Shown here: positions 3,280 to 11,476 of the stretch, in pieces
Numbering within the stretch: the first letter of the stretch is position 1
Layout of the letters: the number at the start of each line of letters is the position of its first letter
NCBI RefSeq assembly: GCF_002217655.1
Contig: NZ_NEWK01000001.1
Span: 754,001 to 818,000, forward strand
Source of the DNA: Geobacillus thermocatenulatus
GTDB taxonomy: Bacteria; Bacillota; Bacilli; Bacillales; Anoxybacillaceae
Direction of reading: 5' to 3'
Length of the DNA: 64,000 nucleotides
The notes under the pieces: generated by a model
What the model was told of the DNA's origin: nothing
The model's input: only the letters and a program-made list of their open reading frames with translations
The model's database searches: none
Translations under genes and position numbers: made by a program

Positions 3280-4194
3280 GTGGCCAAACAGCGAATCGAT
3301 CATGACCGGTTGTTCAAAGAGTTGTTGTCCACATTTTTTGAGGAGTTTTTGCTTCTTTTCTTTCCAGACGTGTACGAGCACATCGACGTTCACCATTTCT
3401 CTTTCCTCTCCGAGGAACTGTTCACCGATGTGACGGCCGGAGAGAAGCACCGCGTCGACTTGTTGGTCGAAACAAAGGTAAAAGGGGAAGACGGGCTCGT
3501 CATTGTTCATGTCGAGCATCAAAGCTACACCCAGCGGACCTTCCCTGAGCGAATGTTTCTCTACTTCAGCCGCTTGTTTCAAAAATACCGCCGCCGCATT
3601 CTCCCGATCGCCATCTTCAGCTATGACGAACAATACGATGAACCTTCCTCATTGGTCATCCAGTTTCCGTTTTTGACCGTTCTCGACTTCCGCTTTTTAA
3701 CGGTGGAGCTCTGCAAACTGCCGTGGCGCGCGTACATCCGCCATGCCAACCCTGTCGCCGCTGCTTTGCTAAGCAAAATGGGGTATAATGAAGATGAGAA
3801 AGTCGAAGTGAAAAAGGAATTTTTGCGCATGCTCGTCCGCCTCGAGTTGGATGAAGCGAAACAGCGGCTGTTGTTCGGTTTTTTTGAGACGTATTTGCGG
3901 CTATCCGAAGAGGAGGAAGCCAAACTGCGAAATGAGGTGAGCCAAATGGAAACGAAGGAAGCGAAGCGTGTGATGGAGCTCATCGTCTCATACGAACAGC
4001 GGGGGATGGAAAAGGGAATCCAACAAGGAATCGAACAGGGGATAAAGCAAGGGATGAAGCAAGGACGCCAACAAGGGATCGAGGAAGGGAAGCTCGACGT
4101 GGTGAAGAGAATGCTGGCGAAAGGGTACGATGTCGACACGATTCACGAACTGACCGGGCTGCCCATTGAGAAGATTGAAAGGCTGAAGGGGTAA
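3280..4194 (+). CDS. Rpn-family recombination-promoting nuclease / PD-(D/E)XK putative transposase
   Basis: A 304-residue protein of the Rpn/YhgA-like family, endonucleases with a PD-(D/E)XK fold that promote RecA-independent recombination in E. coli. The nuclease core is in the first 150 residues: an acidic HRVDLLVETKV strand followed by VIVHVEHQS fits the D...ExQ pattern. Residues about 235-285 form a repetitive tail of GI(Q/E/K)QG units rich in Gln, Lys and Glu, typical of the family and probably helical, followed by a short helical end (MLAKGYDVDTIHELTGL). The start is GTG at 3280 with AGGAGGGG 6-7 nt upstream. These genes are frequent, multi-copy and horizontally mobile; it marks the left edge of the accessory segment. 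Confidence 0.85.
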   Translation: MAKQRIDHDRLFKELLSTFFEEFLLLFFPDVYEHIDVHHFSFLSEELFTDVTAGEKHRVDLLVETKVKGEDGLVIVHVEHQSYTQRTFPERMFLYFSRLFQKYRRRILPIAIFSYDEQYDEPSSLVIQFPFLTVLDFRFLTVELCKLPWRAYIRHANPVAAALLSKMGYNEDEKVEVKKEFLRMLVRLELDEAKQRLLFGFFETYLRLSEEEEAKLRNEVSQMETKEAKRVMELIVSYEQRGMEKGIQQGIEQGIKQGMKQGRQQGIEEGKLDVVKRMLAKGYDVDTIHELTGLPIEKIERLKG

Positions 4195-4219
4195 GCGCAC
4201 CTTCGCCGTCAAGCCTCAC

Positions 4220-4269
4220 ATTGTCGTCGACCCCCAATCGTGCAAAAACCCCGGGGGATCGACGACAAT
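4220..4269. repeat. long near-perfect inverted repeat downstream of the Rpn gene
   Basis: Left arm 4220-4235 (ATTGTCGTCGACCCCC) and right arm 4253-4269 (GGGGGATCGACGACAAT) pair over 16 bp with one bulged base around a 17-nt loop containing AAAAACC. There is no T-tract on either side, so it is not a typical terminator. It looks like a dispersed extragenic palindrome, but copy number cannot be seen in this window. Confidence 0.6.
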
Positions 4270-4370
4270 CATTTTATGCGTTCGAACCTTACGGCCATCG
4301 AGGATAAAGTCTATTGACAGAATTTGTCGGTGACGTTCATCGTCCCGATTGGCGTTTTTATCCTACCTGA

Positions 4371-4413
4371 AAAGGGCAGGAGCGCAAACAACCCTTCGTT
4401 TTGCGCTCTGCCA
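4371..4413 (-). terminator. terminator of the MFS exporter gene
   Basis: On the minus strand, GGCAG-AGCGCAAAAC pairs with GTTTGCGCT-CCTGCC and is followed by CTTTTC. It is placed 67 nt after the stop of the gene at 4480-5727. Confidence 0.7.
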
Positions 4414-4479
4414 TATGATGAAGCAAGACTGATTCCTTTGTTTTGCTCTGAAATAAAGCGATCATTTACAAGAAGGAGG

Positions 4480-5727
4480 TCACAAAATAGTCCCAGTGAT
4501 TTCTCCTTTTTGGCTCTCCTTATAACTCCAGATTTTCCGCTGACGATAACTGATCCAACCGCTGATGAAAAAGCAGCAAACAGACAAATAAAACGAAAAG
4601 CGAATCCCGTAAACATCGGCTATAAAGCTCATCAATAAGGCGGAAATCCCGAACGTTACGGAACTAATGACTCCCTGCACGGAAAAAACATGAGGCAGAG
4701 CGTCCATCCGGGCATTTTTTTGCAAAATCGTCTGAAGGCAAATCACCTTCCATTGTTCGATGATCCCATACAGGGCGGAATACAGAAGCGCCAGCGCACC
4801 GTGCGTCGTTGTACCAAACAAAAGCGTTACAGCAGCGATACAAAACGGGCCAAACAATACAAAAAATTGCTGATTTTTTTCAACCGATTGACTAAACGTA
4901 ACGCTTAACAATCCCCCTATCACCATGCCGCCAAAGAAAACAGAGTTAATATATCCCCACCATTCCTCCCCTACATGTAATTGTTCTTTCACATACATAT
5001 AAAGGATGGCCGAAATCCAGACGCCATTTCCGATTCCTTCAAAAAATGACATGAAGCTAATCGATTTTGCGTGCACATTTCTCCACGTGTATTCCCATCC
5101 TAGACGGATCGAAAGGAGAAAGTTCTTTAGGCCTTTGTCTTGGACCGTATTCTTCTTTGTATGTTCTTGTATAGGCAACAGAAACATGAGAATGCTTGAA
5201 ACGATATAGAACAATAAGGTGATATGGATTAAAAGGAACGGCGATCCCGCACTGACAATCAAACTCCCGATCGGCCATGCGCTAAGTTTGATGAATTGGT
5301 CTAACGTGTTTAAAAAACTGTTGGCTTTCAAGATTTCCTCCTTGGAAACTATAAAAGGAACGAGGGAGTTTTTAATCGGATTATTGATCCCGTCTAAAAA
5401 AGCGATCAATGATACAAAAACGTAAACGATCGCAATGTGATGTTCCGCACCCCATTGCAAAAACAGCGAGAGAAAAAGCAGCAGAAATGTTTTACACAGT
5501 TGTCCGTAGGACAATAACGTTTTTAGTTTATATTTTTCGAAAAATATCGGTGCGACGATTCCGCTAATAAATAACGACAATGTAACGAAAAAAGGGACTA
5601 ATGCGGCAGCCATGGCTTTCGATGTCAAATGATATAGGTAAGAGACAACGGAAACAATGTAGAACACATCTCCGAAATTCGCGAAAGATTGTCCGATCCA
5701 AAGGAAATGAAATGGTTTCTTTTTCAT
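4480..5727 (-). CDS. MFS transporter, macrolide-efflux/DitE-like (candidate peptide exporter)
   Basis: Integral membrane protein of 415 residues with about 10-12 hydrophobic segments and no large soluble domain. The early part (FHFLWIGQSFANFGDVFYIV) is characteristic of the MFS_3 group of Gram-positive drug and macrolide exporters. I place the start at 5727 because AGAGAGGA lies 8 nt before it; an upstream in-frame ATG at 5751 has no ribosome site. The DNA is much more AT-rich than the flanking chromosome and uses A/T-ending codons, suggesting acquisition. It is divergent from the peptide gene at 6083 and the HExxH enzyme gene at 6538; an exporter role for a modified peptide is inference from that context only. 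Confidence 0.8.
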   Translation of the reverse strand: MKKKPFHFLWIGQSFANFGDVFYIVSVVSYLYHLTSKAMAAALVPFFVTLSLFISGIVAPIFFEKYKLKTLLSYGQLCKTFLLLFLSLFLQWGAEHHIAIVYVFVSLIAFLDGINNPIKNSLVPFIVSKEEILKANSFLNTLDQFIKLSAWPIGSLIVSAGSPFLLIHITLLFYIVSSILMFLLPIQEHTKKNTVQDKGLKNFLLSIRLGWEYTWRNVHAKSISFMSFFEGIGNGVWISAILYMYVKEQLHVGEEWWGYINSVFFGGMVIGGLLSVTFSQSVEKNQQFFVLFGPFCIAAVTLLFGTTTHGALALLYSALYGIIEQWKVICLQTILQKNARMDALPHVFSVQGVISSVTFGISALLMSFIADVYGIRFSFYLSVCCFFISGWISYRQRKIWSYKESQKGEITGTIL

Positions 5728-5952
5728 GAGCTCAATCCTCTCTTTGATCATCGAAACGACTGGTGATGGAATAGTCAAAATGAACCAAAAATCAGATCTT
5801 CAGTCTTTGATGAAACTGGCTTTTTGCCACGCCCCAAAACGATGGAGCGAAGGAAAACGGGTTGATTTTCAACAATCTGCTAAAGGTAAATGGATATACT
5901 GAAGCAATGGAAGCCTCCCCCTTATTCTGTTAGAGTCCATTTTTATTTCTAT

Positions 5953-5986
5953 GGTGCTGGTTGAGCGTCAGCGCTCAACTAGCACC
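5953..5986 (+). repeat. stem-loop 1, related to the stem-loop at 6223-6256
   Basis: GGTGCTGGTTGAGCG (5953-5967) pairs with CGCTCAACTAGCACC (5972-5986) around a 4-nt loop; the one non-Watson-Crick position is a G-U wobble only when read as plus-strand RNA. It shares the core GCT(A/G)GTTGA...TCAACTAGC with a second palindrome on the other side of the peptide gene. Confidence 0.75.
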
Positions 5987-6018
5987 ACGGGTATAGAATA
6001 ATTTTATTTTTTTGATTG

Positions 6019-6048
6019 TTGTAATTATACATTTTTTTTTGTTAAAAT
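6019..6048 (+). promoter_or_regulatory. sigma-A-like promoter of the 38-residue peptide gene
   Basis: TTGTAA at 6019-6024 and TAAAAT at 6043-6048 with an 18-nt, T-rich spacer. The start codon follows 35 nt downstream. Confidence 0.5.
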
Positions 6049-6082
6049 AGCAATTAATACAAATAGAAGGAGGTGTTATTCC

Positions 6083-6199
6083 ATGAATAAAAAGCATGTC
6101 GAAAATATTAAACGTTATGTTGAACATTATTTAAAAAGTAATGCACAAATGTCTCTTGTAGTACAACCACTTAGAATGCAAATTCATTTGACAAAGTAG
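6083..6199 (+). CDS. 38-residue peptide, candidate RiPP precursor
   Basis: Short reading frame with an unusually strong ribosome site (AGAAGGAGGTG, 7 nt before ATG) and its own promoter-like sequence, so translation is credible. The product begins with a charged, helix-prone stretch (MNKKHVENIKRYVEHYLKS) that could act as a leader, and ends with a less charged segment SLVVQPLRMQIHLTK that could be the core. There is no signal peptide and no Cys, so a lanthipeptide or sactipeptide is unlikely. It lies 338 bp upstream of a HExxH-type putative peptide-modification enzyme in the same orientation. I recognise no family for it; the precursor role is inference. Confidence 0.5.
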   Translation: MNKKHVENIKRYVEHYLKSNAQMSLVVQPLRMQIHLTK

Positions 6200-6537
6200 T
6201 TTGTTCAATTTATGAAAAAAATGGGGCTAGTTGATCGCTAAAACTCAACTAGCTCCAGGAACATCGCGAAAAGTCCAACCTCGACGGTTACGACCCATGG
6301 GAAGGGGAGCGCTCCTTCACCCGTGGGACATCACCCAAGAGCCTAAAATGGCCTCAAAACTGTCGAACTCGGGTGAAAGATGTACTTGACTTTTAGGAAC
6401 AAACATGATATTGACCCTCCCGGTTGAACAAAATAACAAAAAATGGAAATTGATCTTTTTGACGTTATGAAAAACGTTTTTTGTCAAGTGTATTTTGTGG
6501 TGAAGAGCCATAAATATACCGTGAATAGGGGAGTAGT
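6200..6537. other. intergenic region with two stem-loops and a GC-richer fragment
   Basis: Contains stem-loop 2 (6223-6256) and a second imperfect hairpin at 6295-6326 (CCATGGG / CCCGTGG with a complementary interior). Bases about 6257-6420 are GC-richer than the surroundings and encode a short open stretch without a start codon (around DGYDPWEGERSF), probably debris of another gene. Upstream of 6538 the sequence is AT-rich again and presumably carries the promoter of the HExxH gene. Confidence 0.45.
6223..6256 (+). repeat. stem-loop 2 after the peptide gene
   Basis: GGGGCTAGTTGA (6223-6234) pairs with TCAACTAGCTCC (6245-6256) around a 10-nt loop, again with a G-U pair in plus-strand RNA. 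Position 24 bp after the peptide stop suits a processing or read-through element between a precursor gene and its modification gene; no T-tract follows. Confidence 0.7.
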
Positions 6538-7419
6538 ATGTCAAGTATAGTTCAGACAGAATCAAAAATCTTTTTACCATTTCTGCATAAATCACACATT
6601 ATCGAGAATATCGAGATTCTAAAAAATTATGTCGAGCAGGAAAGTGGAAAGAAATTCCCATTAGGTGTCACGTTAAAAGAGAAATATTTTGAAGCCATAA
6701 ATTATATTCAAGATGTTCCTGTTCCATACTCAAACGAAAAAATACATGTTACATATTTTGATAAAACATTGCAAAATAAATTACTTAGTTTGGGTATGAT
6801 TGACAAAGAGGATTTGGAAAACGATAAACACATTTATTCACAACAAGAGCAAGAAGTAATTACTGATAGAATTGAAAAAGCATTAAAGTTGATCAAAGTA
6901 TTGCATAATGATTTGTATGATTTAATTAATACACTTATTGGTACCTTTTTGATTTTAAAAAAAGATTTGTTTGGTGGAGGATCAGTGTCCAATGTTATGG
7001 GATTAGTATGGTTAAACCCTCAATCTGATTGGTCAATCATTGAATATGCAGAGGCCATTTATCATGAGTTTATCCACCAAAGTATCTTCTTGGATGATAT
7101 GATTAACTGTATGTTTCCTAATGCTAATGAATGTGCAAAAGAAGAAGCTCTAGTTACATCAACCATCTTGAAAATCAAAAGGCCTTTAGACAGAGCATAT
7201 CATGCTGCTGGAGTTTCTATAGGAATTATGCATCTTTATCACTTGTTTAATGATTCTAAAAATTCTGAGAAGTATATGGATGATTTGCGGAAAACAGTTG
7301 AAGAAATAGAGGCAAGAACACAATTCTTGGGGGAACAGGGAGTAAAAACTTTAGAAATCATGCGCAAGTTCATTAATCATCCATCTTTTGATGACATTAC
7401 GTATTCCTTACAGAACTAA
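6538..7419 (+). CDS. HExxH-motif putative peptide-modification enzyme (mod_HExxH / aKG-HExxH-like)
   Basis: A 293-residue soluble protein. The segment AIYHEFIHQSIFLDD carries His176-Glu177-x-x-His180, and about 40 residues later RPLDRAYHAAGVSIGIMHL provides a third candidate metal ligand (His222) with nearby Arg215/Arg219. HExxH plus this distal Arg-Pro...His-x-x-Gly element is how I recall the family annotated as HEXXH-motif putative peptide modification proteins, some of which act as iron/2-oxoglutarate peptide beta-hydroxylases rather than proteases. ATG 6538 has AGGGGA upstream. DNA is strongly AT-rich, unlike pckA next door. A metalloprotease is the main alternative. Family call moderately sure; peptide hydroxylation is inference. 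Confidence 0.6.
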   Translation: MSSIVQTESKIFLPFLHKSHIIENIEILKNYVEQESGKKFPLGVTLKEKYFEAINYIQDVPVPYSNEKIHVTYFDKTLQNKLLSLGMIDKEDLENDKHIYSQQEQEVITDRIEKALKLIKVLHNDLYDLINTLIGTFLILKKDLFGGGSVSNVMGLVWLNPQSDWSIIEYAEAIYHEFIHQSIFLDDMINCMFPNANECAKEEALVTSTILKIKRPLDRAYHAAGVSIGIMHLYHLFNDSKNSEKYMDDLRKTVEEIEARTQFLGEQGVKTLEIMRKFINHPSFDDITYSLQN

Positions 7420-7555
7420 TGGCCATTGCGACAAATGAAAACACAGAAGCCCATTGCGTTTGATCGAGTCCGGTTGTTTTGAGGTTGTTTGAGGCGAATG
7501 AAACGGATCGACGTACAGAAATGCTTCAGGATTCAGTGTCGGAGACGAAAGCAGA

Positions 7556-7603
7556 GGAAAGAACAGAAAAACCGGCCGAACAGGATGTTCCCTGTCCAGC
7601 CGG
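7556..7603 (-). terminator. terminator of pckA
   Basis: Reading the minus strand, CGGCTGGACAGG pairs with CCTGTTCGGCCG and is followed by TTTTTCTGTTCTTT. It begins about 8 nt after the pckA stop. Confidence 0.85.
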
Positions 7604-7610
7604 GTTCTTG

Positions 7611-9197
7611 TTACACGAGCGGTCCGCCGAGTTTTTCGATGGACGGATTGATGTGGGCGAATTTTTGGAAGTTGGCGCGGAATTTTTGCGCCAGCTCTTT
7701 TGCTTTTTGTTCGTATGCTTGTTTGTCGGCCCATGTGTTTTGCGGCTGCAGGACGTCATCCGGCACGCCCGGGACGTGCGCCGGGATGGCGAGTCCGAAA
7801 ATCGGGTCTTTGACCGTTTCGACGTTGTCGAGCTCCCCTTCGACGGCGGCTTGCACCATCGCGCGGGTGTAGACGAGCTTCATGCGGCTGCCGACGCCGT
7901 ACGGCCCCCCTGTCCAGCCGGTGTTGACCAAAAAGACGCGGACGTTGTGTTCGGCGATTTTTTGCCCGAGCATTTCCGCGTATTCAACGGCCGGGCGCGG
8001 CAAAAACGGTGCGCCAAAGCACGTTGAGAACGTTGCTTCCGGTTCGGTGACGCCGCGTTCGGTGCCGGCGAGCTTGCTTGTGTAGCCGCTTAAGAAATGG
8101 TACATCGCCTGTTCGCGCGTCAGCTTGCTGATCGGCGGCAGGACGCCGAACGCATCGGCTGTCAAAAACACGATCGTGGACGGATGGCCGGCGACGCTCG
8201 GGTCGATGATGTTTTGGATCGCCTGAAGCGGGTAGGCGGCGCGTGTGTTTTCCGTCAGCGTGCCGTCGTCGTAATTCGGCACCCGCGTCGCGTCATCGAG
8301 AACGACGTTTTCGAGCACCGCGCCGAAGCCGATGGCGTCAAAAATTTGCGGCTCTTTCTCGCGCGATAGGTTGATGCATTTCGCATAGCAGCCGCCTTCG
8401 ATGTTGAAAATGCCGCGGCTTGACCAACCGTGTTCGTCATCGCCGATCAAGCGGCGGTTCGGGTCGGTCGAGAGCGTCGTTTTTCCCGTTCCCGACAAGC
8501 CGAAAAAGAGGGCGACGTCGCCTTCCTGCCCGACGTTGGCCGAGCAGTGCATCGGCAGGATGCCTTGTTCCGGCAGCACATAGTTCATGACCGAGAAAAT
8601 CGATTTTTTCATTTCGCCGGCATACTCGGTGCCGCCGATCAACACGGTGCGCCGTTCAAACGAGATGATGATGAACGCTTCCGAGCGCGTCCCGTCCACC
8701 TTCGGGTCGGCTTTAAAGTTCGGCGCGCAAATGACGGTGAATTGCGGCTCGTGCGCGGCGAGCTCCTCGGCGTTCGGCCGGATGAACAGCTGATGGACGA
8801 ACAAGTTATGCCAGGCGAATTCGTTGACGACTTGAATCGGCAGCCGGTATTTCGGATCGGCGCCGGCAAAGCCTTTAAACACGAACAGCTCATCTTTCTT
8901 CATTAAATAATCGAGCACTTTGTCGTACAGTTTGTCAAACGTTTCTGGAGACATCGGCTGGTTGACGGCTCCCCAGTCGATCGTTTGCTTCGTGGACGGT
9001 TCTTCGACGATGTATTTGTCTTTCGGCGACCGTCCGGTGTACTTGCCGGTCGTGACGGCGACTGCCCCGGTGTGGGTCAGCCGTCCTTCGTTCCGCTGCA
9101 GCACTTTCTCGACGAGCTCGGCGACGGACAGCTGATGGCGGACGTATGGTTTTTGCAGCAATACATCCAGTTTATTCGTCATATTTGCGATCCCCAT
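7611..9197 (-). CDS. pckA: phosphoenolpyruvate carboxykinase (ATP)
   Basis: Converts oxaloacetate and ATP to phosphoenolpyruvate, CO2 and ADP, the entry step of gluconeogenesis; cytosolic. The 528-residue protein shows the PEPCK kinase-1 loop [11 protein letters not shown], the kinase-2 motif LIGDDEHGW, the substrate-binding [13 protein letters not shown] and MHCSANVG. Start set at ATG 9197 (GGCAGG 8 nt upstream); a TTG two codons earlier (9203) and an ATG at 9182 are alternatives. The promoter contains a CcpN-type operator overlapping the -10, fitting repression under glycolytic conditions. Divergent from metK. Confidence 0.97.
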
Positions 9198-9238
9198 ATT
9201 CAAAACCTGCCTTTTTTATTGTAATCACTCTTGAAAAT

Positions 9239-9659: not shown

Positions 9660-10865
9660 ATGTCAGCCAAACGCCGCTTGTTTACGTCAGAGTCTGTGAC
9701 GGAAGGACATCCGGATAAAATTTGCGATCAAATTTCTGATGCCATTTTGGATGCCATTTTGGAAAAAGATCCGAACGCCCGCGTCGCTTGCGAAACGAGC
9801 GTGACGACCGGGCTGGTGCTTGTGAGCGGGGAAATCACGACGTCAACGTACGTGGACATTCCGCGCATCGTCCGCGATACGGTTCGGGAGATCGGCTACA
9901 CGCGCGCCAAATACGGATTTGACGCCGATACGTGCGCGGTGCTGACGTCGATTGACGAACAGTCGCCGGACATTGCGATGGGGGTTGACCGGGCGCTCGA
10001 GGCGCGCGAAGGTCAGATGACTGACGAGGAAATTGAAGCGATCGGCGCCGGCGACCAAGGATTGATGTTTGGGTTCGCTTGCAATGAGACAGAAGAATTG
10101 ATGCCGTTGCCGATTTCGCTTGCGCACCGCCTGGCGCGCCGATTGGCGGAAGTGCGCAAAACGGACGTCTTGCCGTACTTGCGGCCGGACGGAAAAACGC
10201 AAGTGACGATCGAATACGATGAAAACGGCAAACCGGTGCGCGTCGATACGATCGTCGTGTCCGCGCAGCACCATCCAGAAATTACCCAAGAGCAAATCCA
10301 GCGCGACATTAAGGAACATGTCATCAAGCCGGTCGTGCCGGCGGAGCTGCTTGATGAGAACACGAACTATTTCATCAACCCGACAGGACGATTTGTCATC
10401 GGCGGTCCGCAAGGGGATGCCGGGTTGACGGGGCGGAAAATCATCGTCGATACGTACGGCGGCTACGCCCGTCACGGGGGCGGCGCGTTCTCGGGCAAAG
10501 ATCCGACGAAAGTCGACCGTTCGGCGGCGTATGCGGCCCGCTATGTCGCGAAAAACATCGTCGCGGCAGGGCTTGCCGACAAATGCGAAGTGCAGCTTGC
10601 CTACGCGATCGGCGTCGCCCGCCCGGTTTCGATTTCGATCGATACGTTCGGCACCGGCAAAGTGTCGGAAGACATTTTGATTGAAGTCGTGCGCAACAAC
10701 TTCGATCTCCGCCCGGCGGGCATTATCAAAATGCTCGATCTTCGCCGCCCGATTTACAAACAGACGGCCGCTTACGGGCATTTCGGGCGCACGGATATCG
10801 ACCTGCCGTGGGAGCGCACCGATAAAGCGGCGACGCTGAGAGAACAAGCGCTGGCGAACAAGTAA
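9660..10865 (+). CDS. metK: S-adenosylmethionine synthetase
   Basis: Condenses methionine and ATP to S-adenosylmethionine with release of phosphate and pyrophosphate; cytosolic tetramer. The 401-residue protein has the three-domain MetK layout with signatures [17 protein letters not shown] at the N-terminus, [10 protein letters not shown] and [22 protein letters not shown] 9660 follows AGAGGAGG; the longer open frame back to 9531 overlaps the riboswitch and terminator and is not coding. Regulated by the SAM-I riboswitch; ends in a terminator shared with the opposing ytoA gene. Confidence 0.98.
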
Positions 10866-10921
10866 GGCCGGACGGCGCGGATGCGCGAGTCGTTTCGGGC
10901 GTCGGCAAACGCAACAGCACA

Positions 10922-10950
10922 AGAGCTGCCGGATCACGGCAGCTCTTTTT
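10922..10950. terminator. bidirectional terminator between metK and ytoA
   Basis: AGAGCTGCCG (10922-10931) / CGGCAGCTCT (10937-10946) with T-run; it overlaps the ytoA stop codon at 10934. Confidence 0.85.
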
Positions 10951-11476
10951 CGTGAGGACGCGCGGCTTGCTGCAGCGCCTTGTAATACTGCCCTTTCTCG
11001 ACATATTCACGGCGGATGCGCTCCATTTCGCGGATGTCGTCTTCCGTCAGTTCGCGGACGACTTTCGCCGGCCGGCCGAGGGCGAGCGTGTTGGGCGGAA
11101 TGTTTTTGCCCGGCGGCACTAAACTGCCGGCGCCGATAAACGCGCCTTCCCCGATTTCTGCGCGGTCCAAAATGATCGAGCCCATGCCGATGAGCGCGTT
11201 TTTGCGAACGATGGCGCTGTGCAAAATGACTTGATGGCCGACGGTTACACCGTCTTCAATGATAAGCGGATTGTTTGGACTTTGATGCAAAATTGAGTTA
11301 TCTTGAATATTGACCCGGTTGCCGATCACCGTCGGCGCCACGTCGCCGCGAATGACGGTATTGAACCAAATGCTCGTCTCTTCGCCGATCACGACATCGC
11401 CGGTGATCGTCACATAGTCGGCGATAAAGGCGGATGCGGCAATTTGCGGCGTTTTGCCTTTGTATGGGTAAATCAT
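10934..11476 (-). CDS. ytoA: gamma-carbonic anhydrase-like hexapeptide-repeat protein (YtoA)
   Basis: A 180-residue left-handed beta-helix protein: repeated (I/V)G-x-x-(S/T/A) hexapeptides run from about residue 20 to 140 (VTITGDVVIGEETSIW, IGEGAFIGAGSLV), followed by a C-terminal helix. The zinc-type histidines expected for gamma-class carbonic anhydrases are present in ILHQSPN and GHQVILHSAIV. Activity is unproven for the YtoA branch; the fold is secure. Start ATG 11476 has AAAGGA 10 nt upstream; the longer frame upstream lacks a ribosome site. Confidence 0.88.
   Translation of the reverse strand: MIYPYKGKTPQIAASAFIADYVTITGDVVIGEETSIWFNTVIRGDVAPTVIGNRVNIQDNSILHQSPNNPLIIEDGVTVGHQVILHSAIVRKNALIGMGSIILDRAEIGEGAFIGAGSLVPPGKNIPPNTLALGRPAKVVRELTEDDIREMERIRREYVEKGQYYKALQQAARPHEKELP

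Follow-up and report, generated by a model that had tools for sequence, protein, structure and literature searches.

Does the short gene that lies between a divergent transporter gene and a gene for an HExxH protein in Geobacillus thermocatenulatus encode the substrate of a peptide-modifying enzyme, and what would that enzyme do to it? We analyzed this locus in a stretch of 64,000 bp (the window; G000:C1:754001-818000, within a 3.56-Mb genome whose closest named relatives among those found are Geobacillus icigianus and G. zalihae). The three genes occupy an AT-rich block at ~4.4-7.5 kb, with a GC content of 0.30-0.45 compared with 0.50-0.65 in most flanking DNA, and they very probably represent a new family of small modified peptides. 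We consider it likely that the locus is a minimal cluster of the RiPP (ribosomally synthesized and post-translationally modified peptide) type, comprising a precursor with leader and core, an Fe(II)/2-oxoglutarate oxygenase, and an exporter of the major facilitator superfamily (MFS). Its parts are as follows:

4480-5727, minus strand: MFS transporter gene (Pfam MFS_1); the open reading frame (ORF) reaches a TTG at 5778
6067-6075, plus strand: ribosome binding site of the peptide gene, AAGGAGGTG; other precursors have similar sites
6083-6199, plus strand: precursor peptide gene of 38 codons, conserved across genera, MNKKHVENIKRYVEHYLKSNAQMSLVVQPLRMQIHLTK
6104-6133, plus strand: leader-like element, residues 8-17 (NIKRYVEHYL)
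6167-6187, plus strand: core PLRMQIH, residues 29-35, with Met32 at 6176-6178 and His35 at 6185-6187
6538-7419, plus strand: aKG-HExxH-type peptide-modifying enzyme of 293 residues, matching TIGR04267 and, through a profile of its relatives, ChlH
7063-7077, plus strand: putative metal-binding motif HEFIH, residues 176-180
7180-7203, plus strand: R215-P216-x5-H222 element of the enzyme

A sequence-only reading of this DNA had described an AT-rich block in a GC-rich chromosome, a gene of 38 codons preceded by a strong ribosome site, a 293-residue protein with HEFIH and a distal Arg/His element, and a divergent MFS gene (ORF 4480-5778; MFS_1 at E 8e-17), all of which we recovered. The strong promoter that it also proposed did not hold up, with seven promoter-like sites in 4200-7700 compared with 8.3 in shuffled sequence and thus no excess.

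We compared ten continuous single-core precursors, from the window, Anoxybacillus, Exiguobacterium, G083, Staphylococcus warneri, S. aureus, Cytobacillus, G512, G592, and the phage SPbetaL1 (genomes and loci without a fuller name are given by our G and L handles). Alignment revealed two conserved blocks common to all ten, a leader-like [NR]-I-x-x-[FY] near the N terminus and the C-terminal core, and a leaderless eight-core form also exists in G664. Within the core, Met32 is kept in 10/10 precursors and His35 in nine, giving M-x-x-H in nine; Gln33 and Leu30 are each kept in seven, Arg31 in six (it is absent from S. aureus, Cytobacillus, G512, and SPbetaL1), Pro29 in five, and Gln28 in four, and the Leu30 position is never Ala or Gly. 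Nonsynonymous change is low relative to synonymous change between the window and Anoxybacillus peptides (dN 0.123, dS 0.676) and, over 30 codons, between the window and Exiguobacterium peptides (pN 0.235, pS 0.82), and the window and G010 peptides differ by one silent change and zero amino-acid changes. Because the peptide is conserved across genera and has fewer amino-acid than silent changes, we conclude that its gene did not arise by chance.

The enzyme belongs to an established family. It scores 42.9 bits against TIGR04267, the aKG-HExxH-type peptide beta-hydroxylase model, above the curated cut-off of 40, and TIGR04267 is matched by 11/11 members of both alignment A6 and alignment A2, a profile of 11 enzyme relatives, four of which share only 17-24% identity. 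Nine positions are invariant in A2: A115, G155, H176, E177, H180, R215, P216, H222, and V226. The A2 profile matched ChlH (PDB 8s5f) at E 0.001, aligning both the HExxH and RP...H stretches; its remaining matches up to E 1 were two Spartan chains at E 0.66-0.67. The R215-P216-x5-H222 element presumably holds the 2-oxoglutarate-binding Arg and an additional active-site His. A Pfam search of the enzyme returned no match up to E 1, and public records call such proteins "HEXXH motif-containing putative peptide modification protein."

To place the cluster among its relatives, we took as close those enzymes with 41-99% identity to the window enzyme. They occur in Geobacillus, Anoxybacillus, Exiguobacterium, G083, G512, G592, and G664 and on plasmids of S. 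warneri, S. aureus, and Cytobacillus; SPbetaL1, an SPbeta-like phage, gave the one enzyme match among 50,697 phage records, and four scans of the viral_contigs collection returned no relatives. The enzyme is sparsely distributed: it was found in 9/41 family genomes (four of these remnants), 8/397 genomes of an even order sample (at least one distant and at least one a remnant), 8/398 of a class sample (G500 distant, G748 a remnant), and 1/398 of a phylum sample, that one being the window's own genome. Narrower samples gave 1/19 in the genus of G686, 2/26 in the genus of G592, 3/39 in the order of G592 (G712 distant), and 1/81 in the genus of G748 (a remnant).

We examined 15 non-redundant loci in which a close enzyme is preserved, at minimum in its N-terminal part: the window, G010, G001 (G. 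icigianus, with the gene split across two contigs), G015, G020 (A. pushchinoensis K1, the same DNA as L009), Exiguobacterium RIT594 (L010, whose enzyme is identical to that of G686), G083, S. warneri 2023.05, S. warneri 16A, S. aureus pPH1-1, Cytobacillus BNO1, G512, G592, G664, and SPbetaL1. The matching records NZ_CP053471.1 (S. warneri) and NZ_CP127894.1 (a second Acinetobacter record) were left out. A peptide sequence of the same kind stands beside the enzyme in all 15 loci, as core repeats only in G664. Some loci are damaged: in S. warneri 16A, the enzyme is shortened next to an IS257 transposase gene and the peptide reading frame is discontinuous, and in Cytobacillus BNO1, the enzyme and MFS genes are fragmented. 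The distance from the peptide stop to the enzyme is 60-76 bp in six loci (L009, L010, L025, L020, L021, L050), 5 bp in SPbetaL1 (where the pair lies at L056:5783-6867), ~349 bp in G592 with the enzyme start codon that we chose, and 338, 340, and 583 bp in three Geobacillus, 338 bp being that of the window. Beyond the close set, the short genes upstream of the distant enzymes of G500, G108, and Acinetobacter carry PLRMFATD, VRRMFATD, and PLRMIAYED, respectively, close to their ends. L014 (Sulfurimonadaceae) was rejected as an enzyme relative, since HExxH is absent from the ORF at the match. Searched against plasmids, the window peptide gave no match and the multicore protein gave three weak ones (20-34% identity).

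Peptide and enzyme also occur, and disappear, together. A coding pattern for QPLRMQIH is present once in each of 5/41 family genomes, which are exactly the ones whose enzyme is undeleted (one of the five split over two contigs), and in 0/36 of the others, four of which keep enzyme remnants; a reversed-pattern control gave 0 matches in the 41 genomes. G007, G009, and G011 have lost the stretch equivalent to window 5936-7165, that is, the peptide and the enzyme N terminus, and retain the MFS gene and the final 74-85 enzyme codons. G013 shows no match between ~3.2 kb and 6954 of the window. Family membership of the enzyme, the linkage of a similar short gene to its close homologs, and conservation of the peptide in other genera, each of which the sequence-only reading had put forward for checking, thus all lend support to its RiPP interpretation.

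The G664 locus (L052) carries the most divergent arrangement. Between the divergent enzyme gene and the MFS gene lies a gene with a GGAGG site whose product starts with MYMENVKGD and continues with eight copies of LRMAI, with His after seven and Gly-Pro before seven, and no leader-like segment. The repeats (L052:7352-7729) vary mostly by silent and spacer changes, and LRMAIH is kept in 7/8. The G664 enzyme has ~40 extra N-terminal residues, unique among 11 aligned close enzymes, which include NMLRFMKNHLN; its start codon, like that of G592, was picked by us. The likeness of this extension to the leader was first noticed by eye, and statistics were run afterwards. A hidden Markov model of the ten leaders scored the 60-residue G664 stretch at 10.2 bits, a value reached by 9/20,000 shuffles (HMMER reported 16,611 of the 20,000, the best at 16.1 bits), and a simple position-specific scoring matrix gave 7.9, reached by 61/20,000 shuffles, with eight other enzymes at -6.6 to 5.8. 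The leader has probably moved from substrate to enzyme in G664, and the combination of leaderless LRMAI repeats with a leader-like enzyme extension suggests a peptide substrate built of leader and core modules.

The third gene is the MFS transporter, for which the likely start is the ATG at 5727, matching the start of the Anoxybacillus homolog. An MFS gene adjoins the enzyme in 14/15 close loci; none was seen beside the SPbetaL1 pair. The ryptide exporter model NF041056 is the best NCBIfam match of the window protein and of 8/8 MFS proteins tested from related loci (nine with the window). The MFS protein is likely to export the modified peptide.

Characterized members of the enzyme class suggest what chemistry to expect. 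In the available excerpts of PMC13060819, the residues of RiPP precursors hydroxylated by related enzymes are His, Asp, Phe, Gln, and Pro, with PesO acting on Pro. Those of PMC12636437 describe a radical SAM-HExxH fusion protein that hydroxylates Asp and His, and Gln hydroxylation and cleavage before ARMD by PosC and PflC; with larger side chains before Arg-Met-Asp, PosC carries out beta-hydroxylation and no cleavage. For the window, we infer that the N-terminal half of the 38-residue peptide (NIxxY...HYL) would act as a recognition leader and the C-terminal PLRMQIH as the core. The HExxH protein, as an Fe(II)/2-oxoglutarate peptide oxygenase, would bind the leader and hydroxylate the core, a change of +16 Da; the beta carbon of His35 would be the likeliest site and Leu30 the next, and the mature peptide would leave via the MFS protein. 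Among the sites proposed by the sequence-only reading, conservation favors His35 (nine of ten) over Gln33 and Gln28, which fall behind. Leu30 is our second candidate by analogy to PosC, which attacks the residue before Arg-Met-Asp; leaning on Arg-Met for this choice is weakened by the report, in the same excerpts, that Arg, Met, and Asp are each dispensable for PosC.

Several observations weigh against such a modified and exported peptide. As no leader protease was recognized in the cluster, the leader would have to be removed by a protease from outside it or by the enzyme itself. The SPbetaL1 core has Lys in place of His35, and the last G664 repeat is without His. The likeness of the G664 extension to the leader is only moderately significant, another enzyme scoring 5.8 against its 7.9. 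The genes upstream of the distant Nocardia and Streptomyces enzymes lack the motif, and the distant G712 locus has no recognized precursor. On the transporter side, the window protein scores 215 bits against NF041056, whose equivalog cut-off is 575; the MFS proteins of related loci likewise fall under the cut-off, and an MFS query of the phage records gave no match. Finally, an AlphaFold2 model of the enzyme built from three sequences was poor (mean pLDDT 55), with no Foldseek match at E 0.001.

Four other explanations can be set against this evidence. The enzyme might instead oxidize Leu30, the residue before Arg-Met, at its alpha carbon and thereby cut the backbone, as PosC and PflC do; the core would then be released, or the G664 polyprotein split into units, with no need for a protease. 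PosC and PflC cut immediately before a conserved ARMD (PMC12636437, available excerpts), and a similar x-R-M recurs in the core of 6/10 single-core precursors, all eight repeats of G664, and the short upstream genes of G500, G108, and Acinetobacter; moreover, the clusters contain no recognized protease and the G664 polyprotein would require cutting. However, the same excerpts report cleavage by PosC only with small residues (Ala, Gly) and hydroxylation with Val, and the corresponding position here is Leu in 7/10 precursors and never Ala or Gly; the ARMD residues are individually dispensable for PosC, and Arg is missing from four of the ten precursors. We regard backbone cutting as unlikely, and likewise its extension to the whole family, a protease-free RiPP system with the leader on the precursor or, in G664, on the enzyme, in which oxidation at each LRM both modifies and cuts.

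That the HExxH protein is a zinc peptidase trimming a small peptide into a signal or bacteriocin is improbable: HExxH is the zincin motif and PflC hydrolyzes when the leader is absent (excerpts of PMC12636437), but the window enzyme scores above the oxygenase-family cut-off and its invariant RP...H aligns with the ChlH element. The short protein could also be a partner or regulator of the enzyme with the real substrate elsewhere, and the apparent fusion of a leader-like segment to the G664 enzyme is what a partner domain would give; the core half is nevertheless well conserved and repeated eight times without a leader in G664, a substrate-like rather than cofactor-like pattern, making this explanation improbable. 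We see a close to negligible chance of an unexpressed ORF or of the peptide being a fragment of DUF2470. Its weak Pfam match to DUF2470 (20.1 bits, cut-off 22) was seen in only 1/7 homologous peptides and was rejected as its origin given the sub-threshold score and the lack of a match in 6/7 homologs, and conservation, co-occurrence, and selection all speak for a genuine gene.

A modified peptide of the RiPP type, which we favor, can be compared with systems already described. PflC and PosC of Pseudomonas are also aKG-HExxH enzymes, but the leader of Pfl precursors is nitrile-hydratase-like and several Gln in a row precede ARMD, compared with 38 residues in total for the window peptide, and the Pfl cluster includes an MNIO-nitroreductase and a GNAT protein, compared with one recognized modifying enzyme in the window (PMC12636437, available excerpts). 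The nitrilobacillin pes cluster, as far as the excerpts of PMC13060819 describe it, resembles the window in its Bacillota origin, in an aKG-HExxH hydroxylase (PesO) that acts on a short precursor, and in a conserved motif, there R(V/T)DN, close to the modified Pro; it differs in also encoding two M16 peptidases, a nitrile synthetase, and an MNIO with its partner. The radical SAM-HExxH fusions ChlH and ChlBH share the aligned HExxH and RP...H, but neither a radical SAM domain nor a cyclophane step was recognized at the window locus. A further comparison is with the ryptide/RaS-RiPP clusters of streptococci, through the NF041056 matches of all nine transporters. The sub-cut-off NF041056 score and the lack of a radical SAM domain in 19 scanned proteins set the window apart from a ryptide cluster, and it has an HExxH oxygenase instead of a radical SAM enzyme and a different precursor. 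Some relatives of the cluster have neighboring genes for helix-turn-helix tetratricopeptide-repeat (HTH-TPR) proteins and secreted-looking peptides, which we take to be a resemblance to these quorum-sensing-controlled RiPPs.

The new element is thus the precursor family; the enzyme class is already known, and the eight-core form with the leader on the enzyme is the oddest variant. We found no description of the PLRMQIH peptide family in the open-licence PubMed Central literature, which leaves its absence from print unproven; the strings PLRMQIH, PLRMAIH, RMQIH, and QPLRM had no match in those texts, and the available parts of PMC12707348, PMC13252029, and PMC13381572 do not describe it. Leader-fused enzymes have been built by engineers, and the G664 arrangement would be a natural form of them.

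Around the cluster, the window contains the following features:

1891-2679: Peptidase_S9-type hydrolase gene, outside the cluster on the far side of the 3280-4194 gene
3280-4194: Transposase_31-like gene, one flank of the cluster
5952-5987: 36-bp palindrome upstream of the peptide gene, similar to 6222-6257; not considered a system part
6222-6377: dispersed-repeat pieces between the peptide and enzyme genes; not considered a system part
7611-9203, minus strand: phosphoenolpyruvate carboxykinase gene, the other flank

The two similar palindromes lie on either side of the peptide gene. The second (6222-6257) has extra copies in the genome over 6224-6257, with 20 further same-genome matches to parts of 6200-6500 in the peptide-enzyme gap, and the deletion common to G007, G009, and G011 begins near the first. 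A terminator scan of the cluster region was not above shuffles, an Rfam scan of 4000-7700 gave no match, and neither did PHROGs and PADLOC searches. The sequence-only reading had reported no peptidase or radical SAM gene: a scan of 19 proteins from window 1-14 kb (mainly larger ORFs) revealed no radical SAM domain, but the Peptidase_S9-type gene lies outside the interval it had covered; inspection by eye of the Anoxybacillus and Exiguobacterium ORF listings showed no such gene. Its minimal single-modification system fits the one recognized modifying enzyme of the window but not all relatives, some of which carry more. On the S. aureus plasmid (L021:4971-6804), two tandem HExxH genes stand behind one peptide gene, and in G108 (L026), HExxH genes again number two and the short gene is duplicated. 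Cytobacillus (L022:3619-4530) and G592 (L051:4300-5157) carry an additional Cys-rich protein; the two are homologous (38% identity over 281 residues), their genes differ in position relative to the cluster, and, apart from one sub-threshold DUF3109 Pfam match for one of them, they belong to no known family.

HTH-TPR proteins adjoin the cluster in Exiguobacterium, G083, and G108, each with a small ORF next to it, and none was found among the window proteins scanned. These pairs are:

L010:107-484 and 614-1927: small-peptide ORF and HTH-TPR regulator pair
L025:656-793 and 800-2050: small-peptide ORF and HTH-TPR regulator pair
L026:9442-9570 and 9713-11011: small-peptide ORF and HTH-TPR regulator pair

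The small ORFs resemble secreted pheromone precursors, that of Exiguobacterium repeating SEQDYPGAG. We read the pairs, presumably, as RRNPP-type quorum sensing, and these neighbors suggest quorum-sensing control in three lineages.

An enzyme of ~290 residues and a peptide of ~40, with thermophiles among the sources, make a very compact test system. It comes with ten diverse natural putative substrates of the single-core kind and one of the multicore kind, making it possible to address which core residue is oxidized and whether a leader can act from the enzyme. Given its scattered distribution, which includes staphylococcal plasmids and an SPbeta-like phage, the cluster may be a mobile trait that is useful, for example as a bacteriocin or a signal.

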